Assembly: GCA_024451685.1 (NCBI GenBank)
Contig: JAMXCW010000004.1
Coordinates: forward strand, 1-64,000
Origin: Candidatus Bathyanammoxibius amoris
GTDB taxonomy: Bacteria > Planctomycetota > Brocadiia > Brocadiales > Bathyanammoxibiaceae
DNA length: 64,000 bases
Reading direction: 5' to 3'
A program made the translations under genes and the position numbers. The notes under the pieces were generated by a model. It had not been told where the DNA came from and ran no database searches. It worked only from the letters and a program-made list of their open reading frames with translations. How positions within the stretch are numbered: position 1 is the first letter of the stretch; every line of letters begins with the position of its first letter. Below, piece by piece: positions 35,426 through 40,069 of this stretch.

Positions 35426-35731
35426 ATGGACATAATAGACATATCCGGGCACAAGGGAGGTTTTTTCAAGATCCTTCAGCAGACGGAGAAGACCCAGTCG
35501 GCGGTGATGACTTTCGAGGTGGGACAGGACTCCGGAGGGGAAGACTCACACCCCGGCGACCAGATTATTTACGTCGTGGAAGGCAGGGCGTTCGTGCGCG
35601 CGGGAAAGGAGGAGGCTGTGGCCGGACCGGGGATGCTGCTCACCATCCCGGCGGGCGTTAGCCACTACGTGAGGAATGAGGGAGACGTGCCGCTGTTCAT
35701 CCTAACCGTGTATGCCCCGCCATCCTTTTGA
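35426..35731 (+). CDS. small cupin-domain protein
   Basis: This 101-residue single cupin barrel has GGEDSHPGDQIIYVVEGRAFVRAG as cupin motif 1 (one His, Gln/Asp instead of some ligands) and PAGVSHYVRNEGDVPLFILTVYAPP as motif 2 with a conserved His. It probably binds a metal and a small ligand; the substrate is unknown. GGAG lies 11 bases before the ATG. It converges with the selenoprotein gene (6 bp apart) and is downstream of the dNTPase gene. Confidence 0.85.
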   Translation: MDIIDISGHKGGFFKILQQTEKTQSAVMTFEVGQDSGGEDSHPGDQIIYVVEGRAFVRAGKEEAVAGPGMLLTIPAGVSHYVRNEGDVPLFILTVYAPPSF

Positions 35732-35737
35732 CAATTT

Positions 35738-36475
35738 CTATAATTTCTCCAGCGCCCCGATTACCTCTTCGGGCGCCGGGCGGACCATAAAATTCGGCGC
35801 AACCCGCATCCAGCGGATTTTGCCCTCTTTGTCTATAACAATCGTCGCCGGCCTCGCGATGTCCCCGCCTTCGTGCCCCTTCGGGTGCACAAGACCGTAC
35901 TGCGCGATGACCTGGCACTTTGGATCGGAGAGCAGCGTTACGTCAAAACCAAGTTTTTCATCCTTAAAGACCCTGAGTGATTCCACACTATCCGTGCTGA
36001 CCGCCACCAGCCTCGCCTCCAACCCCTTAACGTCCGGTATCCTTGCCCCAAGACCTTGGAGCTCCGCGTTGCACGTCATTCACCACACCCCGCGGTAGAA
36101 TACCAGTACAACGTTTTCCTTTCCGCGGAGGTCTGAGAGGACAAACTCCCTGTCTTCAGAGTCGGGCAGCTTGAAGCCAGGGGCCTCGTTCCCGACCGCG
36201 ACATTGACATGCGCCTCGGGCAGCGACGCGAGGCCGAAACGCACGTATAGAAACCCCGCGGCTATTACCAGCGTGACCGCCAGCGCCACAGAGGTGCCGG
36301 TTGAATGTTCCTGTCTTAATTGTATTAACGCCCAGGACACCGCTATCAGGAGGATAAAGACGTTGGGCCAGGCAGTGTTCCTTACCCAGGGGATTTTGAG
36401 TAGTAGAAAATAGGCCACCGGCCCGCCCAACAGGGCGAGAAAGACGGGACCCATGCAAAGAATGTTGGACTTCAT
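35738..36475 (-). CDS. membrane-anchored peroxiredoxin-like selenoprotein with in-frame TGA as selenocysteine
   Basis: Two abutting frames on the same phase form one 245-residue protein if the TGA at 36082-36080 is read through. The N-terminal 131 codons hold about three transmembrane helices (about 8-28, 36-52, 61-80) and the start of an AhpC/TSA thioredoxin fold (NEAPGFKLPDSEDREFVLSD, VLVFYRGVW). The C-terminal 113 codons continue the fold (CNAEL, STDSVESL, LLSDP, GLVHPKGHEGGDIARPATIVID). The TGA stands at the peroxidatic cysteine position: FYRGVW-U-MTC gives a U-x-x-C pair (U132, C135). A bacterial SECIS-like hairpin follows the TGA. It is probably a Sec-dependent peroxidase facing one side of the membrane. 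A plain nonsense mutation is the alternative. Confidence 0.82.
36045..36062 (-). promoter_or_regulatory. bacterial SECIS-like hairpin
   Basis: On the minus strand, 17 bases after the TGA, GCTCCAA (36062-36056) pairs with TTGGGGC (36051-36045) in a seven-pair stem closed by the loop GGTC. The loop begins about 24 bases after the TGA and its first two bases are G. Both features fit the published rules for bacterial selenocysteine insertion elements (short apical loop starting with G, about 16-37 nt downstream). Confidence 0.75.
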
Positions 36476-36585
36476 TGGTCAGTAGCCAGTAACTAGTTTA
36501 TACCAGAGTGATAAACCGGCGGGGGGTTTTCTTGATAAAAGCTCAGTCCGGACCTATCCAGTCAGATTGAAAAGACCTGCTGCTA

Positions 36586-36678
36586 TTATTTACCCTTGGC
36601 CTTTCTCTGGCGCCTCTTGAGCAGGTACTTCTTCCTGTTCAGCCTGTGTTTCTGCTTACCTTCAAAACCTGCTGCCAC
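36586..36678 (-). CDS. 30-residue strongly basic protein
   Basis: GTG at 36678-36676 with AAAGGAGG six bases upstream opens a 30-codon frame, about half Lys, Arg or Gln: MAAGFEGKQKHRL, then NRKKYLLKRRQRKAKGK. The excellent ribosome-binding site and tight frame argue that it is real although it is very short. The composition recalls small ribosome-associated or RNA-binding proteins. I do not recognise the family. It lies between the selenoprotein and a PEGA lipoprotein, on the same strand as both. Confidence 0.6.
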   Translation of the reverse strand: MAAGFEGKQKHRLNRKKYLLKRRQRKAKGK

Positions 36679-36750
36679 TAAATTCCTCCTTTAAAACGAA
36701 TTGATACGCCAGATAAACTACCACAAATCAGGCACATGTACAACCAACAC

Positions 36751-37215
36751 TTACGGAATCTCGGTAGAAAAGGCCTTGACCCGAAGCTCAGCGGCCTCCC
36801 TTTCCAGTCTTTCTTTAACCTCAACCAACGGCACAAACTTCTTTTTCCTCAATTTAATGCTCAGGAAATGGTCGTCCTCTATTTTCATCGGCACTATTAC
36901 CTCGGAAAAGAAGTCTATGGGGAACCTCTGGTAATATGGCGTGTCTATCTTCGCGTACAGAGTCTCCCTTTCGTATTCCAGCGTCCCGTCCTTGTCTCTC
37001 TTCTCTATCACAATCTTCCGTGTGCCGTAGTAGGTAAACTCCATCACCACCGGGCTCTCGCCGATCAGCTCGTTATCGACGAATACCTGCGCTCCCGGAG
37101 GGTCTGTCTTGATGGTAAGCGTCCTGGTCACGCATCCGGCACCGCTCAGGATAATAAGCGCCAGGCATGCACATAGCTGAAAATACCTGCTGTTATTGTT
37201 CAAGAAAGACAACAT
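36751..37215 (-). CDS. PEGA-domain lipoprotein
   Basis: This protein of about 154 residues begins MLSFLNNNSRYFQLC and has a lipobox LSGAGC near residue 28, followed by a PEGA domain (IKTDPPGAQVFVDNELIGESP and YYGTRKI) that commonly binds surface glycans or proteins. The remainder is charged. The ATG at 37215 was chosen; a TTG three codons upstream with GGAG is possible. Its 5' end overlaps the upstream phosphoesterase gene by about 23 bp, so the two are co-translated. Confidence 0.8.
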   Translation of the reverse strand: MLSFLNNNSRYFQLCACLALIILSGAGCVTRTLTIKTDPPGAQVFVDNELIGESPVVMEFTYYGTRKIVIEKRDKDGTLEYERETLYAKIDTPYYQRFPIDFFSEVIVPMKIEDDHFLSIKLRKKKFVPLVEVKERLEREAAELRVKAFSTEIP

Positions 37216-37669
37216 GCGCCTCAAGTGTCTCCAGGTCGAGAATGGCGGCAGACGGCCTGCCGTAAAGCCACCCGCCGCACTCCCCCGGGTTTATAAACAG
37301 CGGCCTGCCGCCGTTTATCTCAGGCTCGTGCGTATGGCCGGATATGACCACGTCGGCCTTTTCTTTCAGTTTATCCCGCACCCGTTCCAGATGGTGTGTC
37401 ACAAGGATGTTCCGGCCGTCAAGTTCGAACATGAACGGCGCCTCGTGCACCTCGCCGCAAAGTTTTTTAAGACCCTGCTTTTCGCCGTCATTGTTGCCGA
37501 ACACACCGATTATTTTTATCCCCGGTTTCTGCAGTTCCTTCAGGGCGAAGGGCGCCACGTAGTCACCGGCGTGTATCATGCATTCCACGTCATGCGCCTT
37601 AAACATCTCCATGGCCCGCCGTATCATCGGCACGTTATCGTGGGTGTCCGCTATTACTCCTACCTTCAT
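37193..37669 (-). CDS. YfcE/MJ0936-type metallophosphoesterase
   Basis: This 158-residue calcineurin-like phosphodiesterase has all five metal motifs: VIADTHDN, HAGDYV, FGNNDG, THHLE and SGHTHEPE. It probably hydrolyses phosphodiesters or cyclic nucleotides; the physiological substrate is unknown. The fold and length match the small MJ0936/YfcE group. It overlaps the PEGA lipoprotein gene downstream. Palindromic repeats lie upstream. Confidence 0.92.
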   Translation of the reverse strand: MKVGVIADTHDNVPMIRRAMEMFKAHDVECMIHAGDYVAPFALKELQKPGIKIIGVFGNNDGEKQGLKKLCGEVHEAPFMFELDGRNILVTHHLERVRDKLKEKADVVISGHTHEPEINGGRPLFINPGECGGWLYGRPSAAILDLETLEAHVVFLEQ

Positions 37670-37798: not shown

Positions 37799-38680
37799 TT
37801 AGAAATTTATATCGTCTTTTATTAAATATCGTTTAGCTGGTTTTTTAAATGGGGTAATAAAATATTCTTCTTCCATTCTTCTTGCAGGTGAATTTATTGA
37901 GTACGGAAAGGCAAAACCGGAGCGTATACACCCTCTGTATATCCTGTACATTTTCTTTATCTCCTGTGCTTTATCATAACTCAAAATCCATTTATTTTTC
38001 AGGCGTTTAATTGCCTTGCTTAATTCTAAATGCTCTTTTTCGTTAAAATAATGCCTGTACAAACGATTACCCTTTTTGTAAAAGGGGGGGTCAAAATAAA
38101 AAAATATCTTATTATTTTGTTTTACCTTTTCAGCATATCTAATCGTTTTTTCCCAGCCATACGGCAAGACAATCACCCGATTCTTAAAGTGAGAAATGTA
38201 TTTTATTTTTTCAATCAATAATTTTCTATTAAACCTACAATTTATTTTATATTTTGCGTTTTGCTTCTTTCCGCCTATCGGCCCAGTGCTATCTTTTAAA
38301 ATCCCTGAAAAACTTGTTCTGTTTAAAAATATACATGCCTCCGCGAATTTTTTATTACTTGCCTCTTTACTTGTTGCTATTTTTTTATATTTGCAAAAGT
38401 TTTCAACATTTATATCTACATTCTTGATAAATTTTATTAAACATTTAGGATCGTTAAATACAACCTTCCAAAAACTATATATTAACCGATCTTTGTCGGC
38501 AATAATAACTTTATTCACCCAGTTATTTAATAAAAAATTTAATGAAACACTTCCCCCACCAACAAAGGGTTCTACTAAAACGTCAGGCTTGAATTCATTA
38601 AAATCCAAAACTTTCTTAATATATTTAACTAAATTGTTTTTAGATCCAGGGTATCTTAATGGGCTTGTGATTTTTTTCAT
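37799..38680 (-). CDS. Dam-family DNA adenine-N6 methyltransferase
   Basis: This 293-residue D12-class methylase has SPLRYPGSKNNL (AdoMet-binding entry), VEPFVGGGSVSLNFL, and the catalytic DPPF in FFYFDPPFYKKGN. It transfers a methyl group to adenine N6 in an unknown target sequence. The gene is strikingly AT-rich (long A/T runs, Asn/Lys/Ile-rich product), unlike its neighbours, indicating horizontal transfer. The next gene upstream is a ParB-like protein of the same composition, 18 bp away, so they form a two-gene module, probably defence or mobile-element linked. No restriction endonuclease is adjacent, so it may be an orphan or a new pairing. Confidence 0.9.
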   Translation of the reverse strand: MKKITSPLRYPGSKNNLVKYIKKVLDFNEFKPDVLVEPFVGGGSVSLNFLLNNWVNKVIIADKDRLIYSFWKVVFNDPKCLIKFIKNVDINVENFCKYKKIATSKEASNKKFAEACIFLNRTSFSGILKDSTGPIGGKKQNAKYKINCRFNRKLLIEKIKYISHFKNRVIVLPYGWEKTIRYAEKVKQNNKIFFYFDPPFYKKGNRLYRHYFNEKEHLELSKAIKRLKNKWILSYDKAQEIKKMYRIYRGCIRSGFAFPYSINSPARRMEEEYFITPFKKPAKRYLIKDDINF

Positions 38681-38698
38681 AACACTATCAAATAAATT

Positions 38699-40069
38699 TT
38701 ACTTTTTCATTTTTGGATCATTAACGAGAAAACCAAAAAACTTGCTCAAATTTTTCCATAAATCCTTTATAGTAGTCCCTGTCGCTGAAAAGACTGTGTT
38801 ATGAACTACTTGGTTTAAATTTTTTGTCAGCAGTTCGTTATTAAGTAAAACAACTGTGTCCTTTAAATCTTCGTCTTTAATATACTTATCTCTTACATGA
38901 TTGATTCTGCTAACAAGTGGCTTCCCGTCTTTTCTTGAATCACCCTTCTTCTTTAAATACTCATCTATTGTAATTTCAATTAATGTCCTTACTAAAAGAG
39001 TGCTTGCCGTTGGACACTTAGTTACATTAACCTCTTGCAGCTCTCTAAAAACCTCCTTTATTTTTTCAGATTTAATTCTTGGTAGCGCTTTTCTTGGGTT
39101 AATAAGCGATGAAAAGCTTCCTTGTTCAACTATCTTAGTTTTCCTAACACTTATTTTGGGGGCTTCTTTTGCTTTAGGAGGGTTCTCTCTTGCTATTTTA
39201 ATTAGACCATCAATAACTTTTGCATCAGTAATCGATATGGAATTTAGATATTTTTGTATCTCGGTGTCTTTATTAAGAGTTCTAGTGTTAAGTGGCTCTC
39301 CAGATAATGTTTTTTTATGAAAAATATTATATACAATCACTTTTAGTAGAGACAAAAACTCTTTTTCATTATCAATGTATAGACCGTAATCATCTTTTTT
39401 TTCGTATTTTAATTTTTTTCTACCTTGCGCACTGTCTACCACTCTATAAAATATTGTCGTAAAGCCTCTCCCTAGTATTTCTTGTTTTATCTTCCGTGGA
39501 AAGTCAAGTAACTCAATTTTCTCACCAAGTCTAGCTCGAAATATACTCTTTCGTTCCTTTGGAGAAAGCTTATCTTCAGACTCGCCTCTTGTTCTTTTAA
39601 TGTAGTGGTCTCGTTCATAATGTTCCCATCTTTTCTCATTATTGCCATGATAGTGCTTCCGCTTTACATAACGCATTCCTTCTTCTTTGTTAGATGTTAC
39701 GACGGATTCTAGTTGAAACTCTTCGCTGATGGGGATTTTATTCTTTAAAGCCTCAAACTCTCCTCTTAAATTATCCTCTCTGACAAGATTTGGATTTATT
39801 AAGCATTTGTAAGCCGCAACTCTTCTATTGCCCTCTAAAACAACATTTTTATCCCTCGTTTTCCAAACGACCAGTTTTTCTAATTGAGGCAAATAAAACT
39901 CTTCTACTATTTCATTAGCTAAAGCTGCAATATCATATCTTTCTAATAGAACTTTGATTAATTCTCCCTCATTCCCATCTTGAAGATAATCAGGGAATCT
40001 GGAATTTGCATCCCACAAGGTTAGATCCTTAATTGCAACTTTTTTAGCTTCGAAATTCTTATTTCTCAT
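38699..40069 (-). CDS. ParB-like nuclease-fold protein of an AT-rich island
   Basis: This 456-residue protein has an N-terminal ParB/sulfiredoxin-like core (about 10-100): KKVAIKDLTLWDANSRFP and VVLEGNRRVAAYKCLINP, the E-G-N-R-R-x-x-A motif typical of ParB-like nucleases and DndB-like or DUF262-like proteins. The rest is Lys/Glu-rich with helix-like segments; its C-terminal third is of unknown fold. It pairs with the downstream methyltransferase and is likewise AT-rich and foreign. It may be the specificity or effector part of a defence system; this is inference from neighbourhood and motif. Confidence 0.7.
   Translation of the reverse strand: MRNKNFEAKKVAIKDLTLWDANSRFPDYLQDGNEGELIKVLLERYDIAALANEIVEEFYLPQLEKLVVWKTRDKNVVLEGNRRVAAYKCLINPNLVREDNLRGEFEALKNKIPISEEFQLESVVTSNKEEGMRYVKRKHYHGNNEKRWEHYERDHYIKRTRGESEDKLSPKERKSIFRARLGEKIELLDFPRKIKQEILGRGFTTIFYRVVDSAQGRKKLKYEKKDDYGLYIDNEKEFLSLLKVIVYNIFHKKTLSGEPLNTRTLNKDTEIQKYLNSISITDAKVIDGLIKIARENPPKAKEAPKISVRKTKIVEQGSFSSLINPRKALPRIKSEKIKEVFRELQEVNVTKCPTASTLLVRTLIEITIDEYLKKKGDSRKDGKPLVSRINHVRDKYIKDEDLKDTVVLLNNELLTKNLNQVVHNTVFSATGTTIKDLWKNLSKFFGFLVNDPKMKK

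Follow-up and report, generated by a model that had tools for sequence, protein, structure and literature searches.

Selenoproteins in which a UxxC or UxxU motif is combined with a PF00578 domain have been catalogued as "Prx-like thiol:disulfide oxidoreductases" (PMC13188914 Table 1; PMC2398784 Table 2), and the true Sec peroxiredoxins carry a TxxU motif (PMC13188914, PMC2398784). Fusions of Prx-like selenoproteins from the GOS survey carry extra domains with conserved Cys (PMC2398784).

The window analyzed here is a stretch of 64,000 nucleotides from Candidatus Bathyanammoxibius amoris. An apparently broken gene on its minus strand is read as a single gene in which an internal UGA would code for selenocysteine in the redox active site, a reading that is very well supported by comparison with relatives. 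The product appears to be a three-helix-anchored member of the class catalogued as "Prx-like thiol:disulfide oxidoreductase" (PF00578, UxxC). Taken as a whole, the explanation of this locus as encoding a membrane-anchored UxxC selenoprotein oxidoreductase is very likely to be correct.

Gene Organization and Conservation of the UGA Codon

Direct reading of the minus strand from 36475 to 35738 confirms the original prediction that two same-phase frames are joined across a single TGA. This codon (36082-36080) is the sole interruption of the frame that runs from the ATG at 36475 to the TAG stop, and the features of the readthrough product are collected in Table 1. The sequence around the TGA reads VVLVFYRGVW-U-MTCNAELQGLG, and the 245 residues comprise approximately 85 hydrophobic N-terminal residues that form three helices, followed by an AhpC/TSA domain.

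Table 1. Features of the selenoprotein gene, with coordinates in the window.
Feature	Coordinates	Strand	Details
Whole selenoprotein gene	35738..36475	(-)	ATG 36475-36473; UGA is codon 132; TAG stop 35740-35738; 245 aa
Selenocysteine UGA codon (U132) at the start of UxxC	36080..36082	(-)	TGA in orthologues and homologues; Cys (TGC) in L047 and L048
Cys135 codon (TGC), second position of UxxC	36071..36073	(-)	Aligns with the peroxidatic Cys of peroxiredoxins; invariant in the anchored-group alignment
N-terminal three-transmembrane-helix anchor, approximately residues 4-85	36221..36466	(-)	Hydropathy, loop charges, alignments
AhpC/TSA (peroxiredoxin-like, thioredoxin-fold) domain, residues 92-245	35741..36202	(-)	Pfam PF00578
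bSECIS-type hairpin GCTCCAA-GGTC-TTGGGGC	36045..36062	(-)	Apical loop 36055-36052; comparative tests

An orthologue is present in seven of the eight other genomes of the host family (50-73% identity), and each of these orthologues contains exactly one TGA, at the same codon. Including the window gene, codon 132 is therefore TGA in 8/8 family orthologues, and the same is true of 20 further homologues, found by searching 392 genomes of the phylum with a profile, whose sequences were then read. In one genome (G098), that search showed two TGAs. In a second genome of the host genus (G005; 90% complete, 6% contaminated), neither the selenoprotein gene nor SelA was found, which may be due to fragmentation of the assembly into 370 contigs. 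A scan of contigs with the window protein returned only a Thr-type peroxiredoxin of Ca. Thermochlorobacter, which is unrelated to the anchored form.

Close homologues with Cys in place of the TGA, which the original prediction had anticipated, do occur. Two proteins with the same three-helix anchor, L047 and L048, have TGC at the UGA position, and a third homologue, L049, has CPFC at the motif. In the phylogenetic tree L047 pairs with L044 (99/92) and L048 pairs with L052 (96/79), with each pair consisting of a Cys form and a Sec form from the same family. Since each Cys form groups with the Sec form of its own family, at least two exchanges between Sec and Cys have probably taken place.

Selenocysteine Machinery of the Genome

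The machinery on which the original prediction depended is all present in the genome from which the window was taken (2.07 Mb; completeness 95%). The canonical tRNA-Sec, with anticodon tca, scores 70.1 bits, above the gathering score of 47. SelA (576.3 bits) is followed directly by SelB (375.6 bits), and SelD is present as well (352.4 bits). Together with the comparative evidence, these findings indicate that selenocysteine is almost certainly inserted at UGA 36082-36080. The gene for SelD (L016; G000:C3:76858-77781) has an in-frame TGA of its own at codon 11 of the match, in the active-site segment CGGUAGK, and this SelD is likely a second selenoprotein of the same genome.

The SECIS-Type Hairpin

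A bacterial SECIS element is expected as a hairpin directly 3' of the UGA, at a distance of 16-37 nt, with a G in the first positions of its loop. The hairpin that had been predicted 17 bases after the TGA, with GCTCCAA pairing to TTGGGGC across the loop GGTC, is found at 36062-36045; it starts exactly 17 nt 3' of the TGA, has a 7-bp stem, and opens into its loop at the 25th nt after the UGA. Considered as a single sequence, the window hairpin folds no better than chance relative to dinucleotide shuffles (z -0.35, 0.16, and -0.46).

Comparison among relatives gives a different result, and it is by comparison only, not as a single sequence, that the hairpin is significant as a putative SECIS-type element. 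In the family alignment (n = 8), the codons within the hairpin show 1.33 distinct codons per invariant residue versus 2.61 elsewhere after matching for degeneracy (permutation p ~5e-5 from 20,000 draws, a value that serves as a guide rather than an exact probability because the sequences are related). Stems of at least 6 bp are found in the hairpin stretch of 25 of the 28 UGA-bearing genes versus 17% of the other windows in the same genes, and in most of these genes approximately the 25th nt beyond the UGA is the first of the loop. The best stem in the Cys forms L047 and L048 is 3 bp, and the hairpin is absent from both. The homologues fall into two hairpin classes, with 4-nt and 3-nt loops, in each of which 91-95% of cells pair versus 81-84% after shuffling. 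The covariation scores of the two classes are matched by 1/500 and 0/500 shuffles, shifting the stem partner by one column abolishes pairing, and compensatory changes can be seen directly (CTCCAA/TTGGAG to CTCCGA/TCGGAG; CTGCAA/TTGCAG to CTGCGC/GCGCAG). The GGTC loop at the 25th nt, the conserved position, and the covariation are all features of a bacterial SECIS element. Frozen synonymous sites, covariation, and loss of the stem in the Cys forms thus bear out the SECIS-like character that was originally proposed.

Domain Class and Position of the Selenocysteine

The domain assignment is clear, with residues 94-222 matching PF00578 (AhpC/TSA) at 103 bits (cut-off 26; 1.3e-29). At its own cut-offs, no NCBIfam model matches the protein; the nearest models are thiol peroxidase, ResA, PrxU, and SelL-related. 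When the single sequence and the family profile are aligned with solved peroxiredoxins, U132 falls at the Thr/Ser position of PxxxTxxC, and the peroxidatic Cys corresponds to Cys135. R128 occupies the position of the Pro in this motif, and P209 that of the active-site Arg (as in KRAVFVID). Neither R128 nor P209 varies among 17 members of the anchored group, and Cys135 is likewise invariant in the anchored-group alignment. The protein consequently lacks the defining peroxiredoxin residues, since R128, U132, and P209 stand for Pro, Thr, and Arg, and the peroxidatic position is held by Cys135 rather than by Sec. Residues U132-M-T-C135 instead form a thioredoxin-like UxxC motif, which appears in relatives as UPTC, UPAC, UAAC, ULSC, UPFC, and others.

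The original prediction placed the TGA at the peroxidatic cysteine and described a membrane-anchored Sec-peroxidase. The selenoprotein, the anchor, the AhpC/TSA domain, and the U-x-x-C motif of that description all hold, but the TGA lies three residues before the peroxidatic position, on the Thr of PxxxTxxC, and the label of peroxidase is therefore unsupported. The motif and alignment suggest that the protein likely carries out UxxC thiol:disulfide-type chemistry rather than acting as a true peroxidase.

The Membrane Anchor

Of 28 anchored homologues subjected to hydropathy analysis, 26 show three helices. The anchor contains an invariant Arg32 in its first loop and no conserved Cys, and the lack of conserved Cys suggests that its role is probably anchoring only. 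A single-sequence AlphaFold2 model shows the helices at low confidence (mean pLDDT 47.5) and is otherwise unusable. According to the positive-inside rule, positively charged loops are cytoplasmic. The mean net charges are +1.3 for the N-terminus, +0.7 for loop 1, +2.2 for loop 2, and +0.7 for the C side, and these differences, which are modest, point to a cytoplasmic location for the N-terminus and loop 2 and to a redox domain on the outside. A related Sec protein, L058, has a lipobox-like lipoprotein-type signal (VLAGC) in place of the anchor, which likewise points to an outside location. Based on the loop charges and this lipoprotein-type relative, the redox domain is probably located outside the cytoplasm. 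Other Prx-like UGA proteins of the phylum also lack the three-helix anchor, L058 being the one with the lipoprotein-type signal. The anchor was initially described as unusual, which holds among known Prx-like proteins; it is not unique to the window gene, however, as it recurs in many genera across the phylum.

Proposed Mechanism and Alternative Explanations

The comparative evidence strongly supports a mechanism in which SelB and tRNA-Sec decode UGA 36082-36080 as selenocysteine by means of the hairpin 17 nt downstream. The three N-terminal helices would hold the protein in a membrane; the most likely orientation has a cytoplasmic N-terminus and places the redox domain on the opposite side. 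Because the domain lacks the peroxiredoxin-site Pro, Thr, and Arg and has U132-x-x-C135 as its redox center, the protein is most likely an oxidoreductase of the ResA/TlpA or PRXL2/SelL type. In the proposed cycle, the selenolate would attack a disulfide or a peroxide, C135 would resolve the product as an Se-S bond (selenenylsulfide), and a thiol partner would then reduce this bond. Its most likely role would be to reduce oxidized thiols or peroxides on the outer side of a membrane.

Two alternatives concern the reading of the UGA itself. If the TGA were a genuine stop codon or had arisen by recent nonsense mutation, the locus would consist of two genes, with the second ORF beginning at the adjacent ATG, or of a pseudogene. 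An ATG does lie immediately 3' of the TGA in the window, but this codon is CCT, CCG, CCC, or GCT in relatives, and L024 has no start codon among the 30 codons 3' of its TGA, which rules out a conserved two-gene arrangement. Furthermore, the TGA is kept down to 50% protein identity, the Cys relatives have one continuous frame, and dN/dS for L022 is equally low before (0.19; 0.16/0.87) and after (0.22; 0.15/0.70) the TGA. The comparative evidence has already refuted this explanation, which is scarcely credible. UGA-to-Trp codes and Cys-charged tRNA-Sec variants exist elsewhere, and the UGA might be read as Trp, or as Cys via a recoded tRNA, instead of as Sec. This is very improbable given the canonical tRNA-Sec with SelA, SelB, and SelD, the neighboring cupin gene that terminates in TGA, the Cys at this position in relatives, and the SECIS-type hairpin that accompanies UGA only.

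The remaining alternative accepts the selenocysteine and differs in its chemistry. In a strict Sec peroxidase, as first envisaged for this locus, Sec would be the peroxidatic residue, reducing membrane-adjacent H2O2 or lipid peroxides. In favor of this view, the AhpC/TSA domain is present, Sec often raises peroxidase rates, and extracytoplasmic detoxification of peroxide would suit an oxygen-sensitive anammox cell. Against this, U132 falls on the Thr/Ser and C135 on the peroxidatic Cys, R128 and P209 take the places of the site Pro and Arg (P209 is invariant in 17 homologues), the match to the NCBIfam PrxU model is 46.8 versus 270 bits, and the motif is UxxC rather than the TxxU of true Sec peroxiredoxins (PMC13188914, PMC2398784). 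A strict Sec peroxidase is consequently unlikely, and the thiol:disulfide-type oxidoreductase is the preferred reading.

Host, Distribution, and Genomic Context

Hydrazine synthase is the hallmark of anammox. Among 61 genomes of the order, 39 have a match to hydrazine synthase alpha (PF18582) above its cut-off, the host being one of them, compared with 0 of 14 control genomes. The presence of hydrazine synthase in the host genome thus identifies an anammox bacterium of the Brocadiales, Planctomycetota. Genomes of Ca. Bathyanammoxibiaceae are 1.9-2.4 Mbp with approximately 50% GC (PMC10467342), and the host is similar, with a genome of about 2 Mb and a GC content of 51.7% in the window. An order-wide search identified SelA in 8/9 genomes of the host family, in most genomes of families f1, f2, and f3, and in 0/17 genomes of f4, so that a whole anammox family seems either to have lost the Sec trait or to lack it.

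The region 35426-37669 of the window encodes a YfcE-type phosphoesterase, a PEGA-domain lipoprotein, the Sec protein, and a convergent cupin, an order that partly recurs in several loci of the family. No conserved functional neighbor, partner, or substrate was found, and the neighboring genes at the family loci suggest no function. Upstream of the Sec gene, at approximately 36586-36683 on the minus strand, is a very short, strongly basic frame, AAGFEGKQKHRLNRKKYLLKRRQRKAKGK, which we take to resemble the small COX24/AURKAIP1-type ribosomal peptides. Adjoining the locus, at 37799-40069 on the minus strand, inspection by eye identified two frames, one DNA adenine methylase-like and the other ParB-like/nuclease-associated, which have the appearance of an inserted defence or mobile segment.

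Novelty and Significance

The catalytic domain and chemistry are those of a known kind of selenoprotein. In the literature searched, nothing specific was found on a transmembrane Prx-like selenoprotein or on Sec in anammox bacteria, and no description was found of the fixed three-helix anchor, its phylum-wide spread, or its occurrence in anammox bacteria. Because standard gene callers take UGA as a stop, a split gene is to be expected, and the protein is probably missing from the annotations of anammox and other planctomycete genomes. The locus is of interest in that selection has maintained a Sec-using membrane redox protein, alongside a complete Sec system, in one anammox family, while SelA is found in 0/17 genomes of another family of the order. 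Additionally, the absence of the SECIS hairpin where Cys replaces Sec offers a testable case of Sec-Cys exchange. A bolder proposal is that these proteins form a distinct, phylum-wide Planctomycetota family of three-helix-anchored extracytoplasmic Sec oxidoreductases with a dedicated role in the energy-conserving or cell-envelope membranes of anammox bacteria, which is quite doubtful. If true, such a role might, for example, be to maintain the haem-binding thiols of the many c-type cytochromes in the reduced state, or to break down reactive nitrogen or oxygen species near hydrazine metabolism.

Comparison with Known Systems

The closest described systems are the Prx-like thiol:disulfide oxidoreductases ("Prx-like 1" of the GOS survey), which have in common with the window protein the AhpC/TSA domain, Sec in the first position of UxxC, a bacterial SECIS, and Cys homologues. 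The window protein adds an N-terminal three-helix anchor fused to this domain, a form of which no description was found in the literature searched. The GOS Prx-like 2 and 3 fusions also combine a Prx-like selenoprotein with an extra domain; in contrast to the extra domains of those fusions, the anchor of the window protein contains no conserved Cys. SelL and SelL-related proteins (NF040769) share the Prx-like fold and a redox motif in the UxxC/UxxU/CxxC register, and all eight family members match this model weakly (best 3.1e-17); the window protein itself scores 43.2 bits, where the cut-off is 120. Unlike SelL, the window protein has one Sec rather than two, and it has a membrane anchor.

PrxU (NF040737; 46.8 bits against a cut-off of 270) shares the peroxiredoxin-like domain and Sec in the active-site loop. 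The Sec peroxiredoxins are TxxU proteins with Sec at the peroxidatic position, whereas the window protein has UxxC and lacks the site Pro, Thr, and Arg. Finally, the ResA/TlpA/DsbE proteins share membrane anchoring and, probably, an extracytoplasmic redox domain of the CxxC type (UxxC in the window protein), and ResA is among the better NCBIfam (47.2 bits, cut-off 170) and PDB matches. The window protein differs from this group in having three helices rather than one, an AhpC/TSA-like sequence, and Sec.
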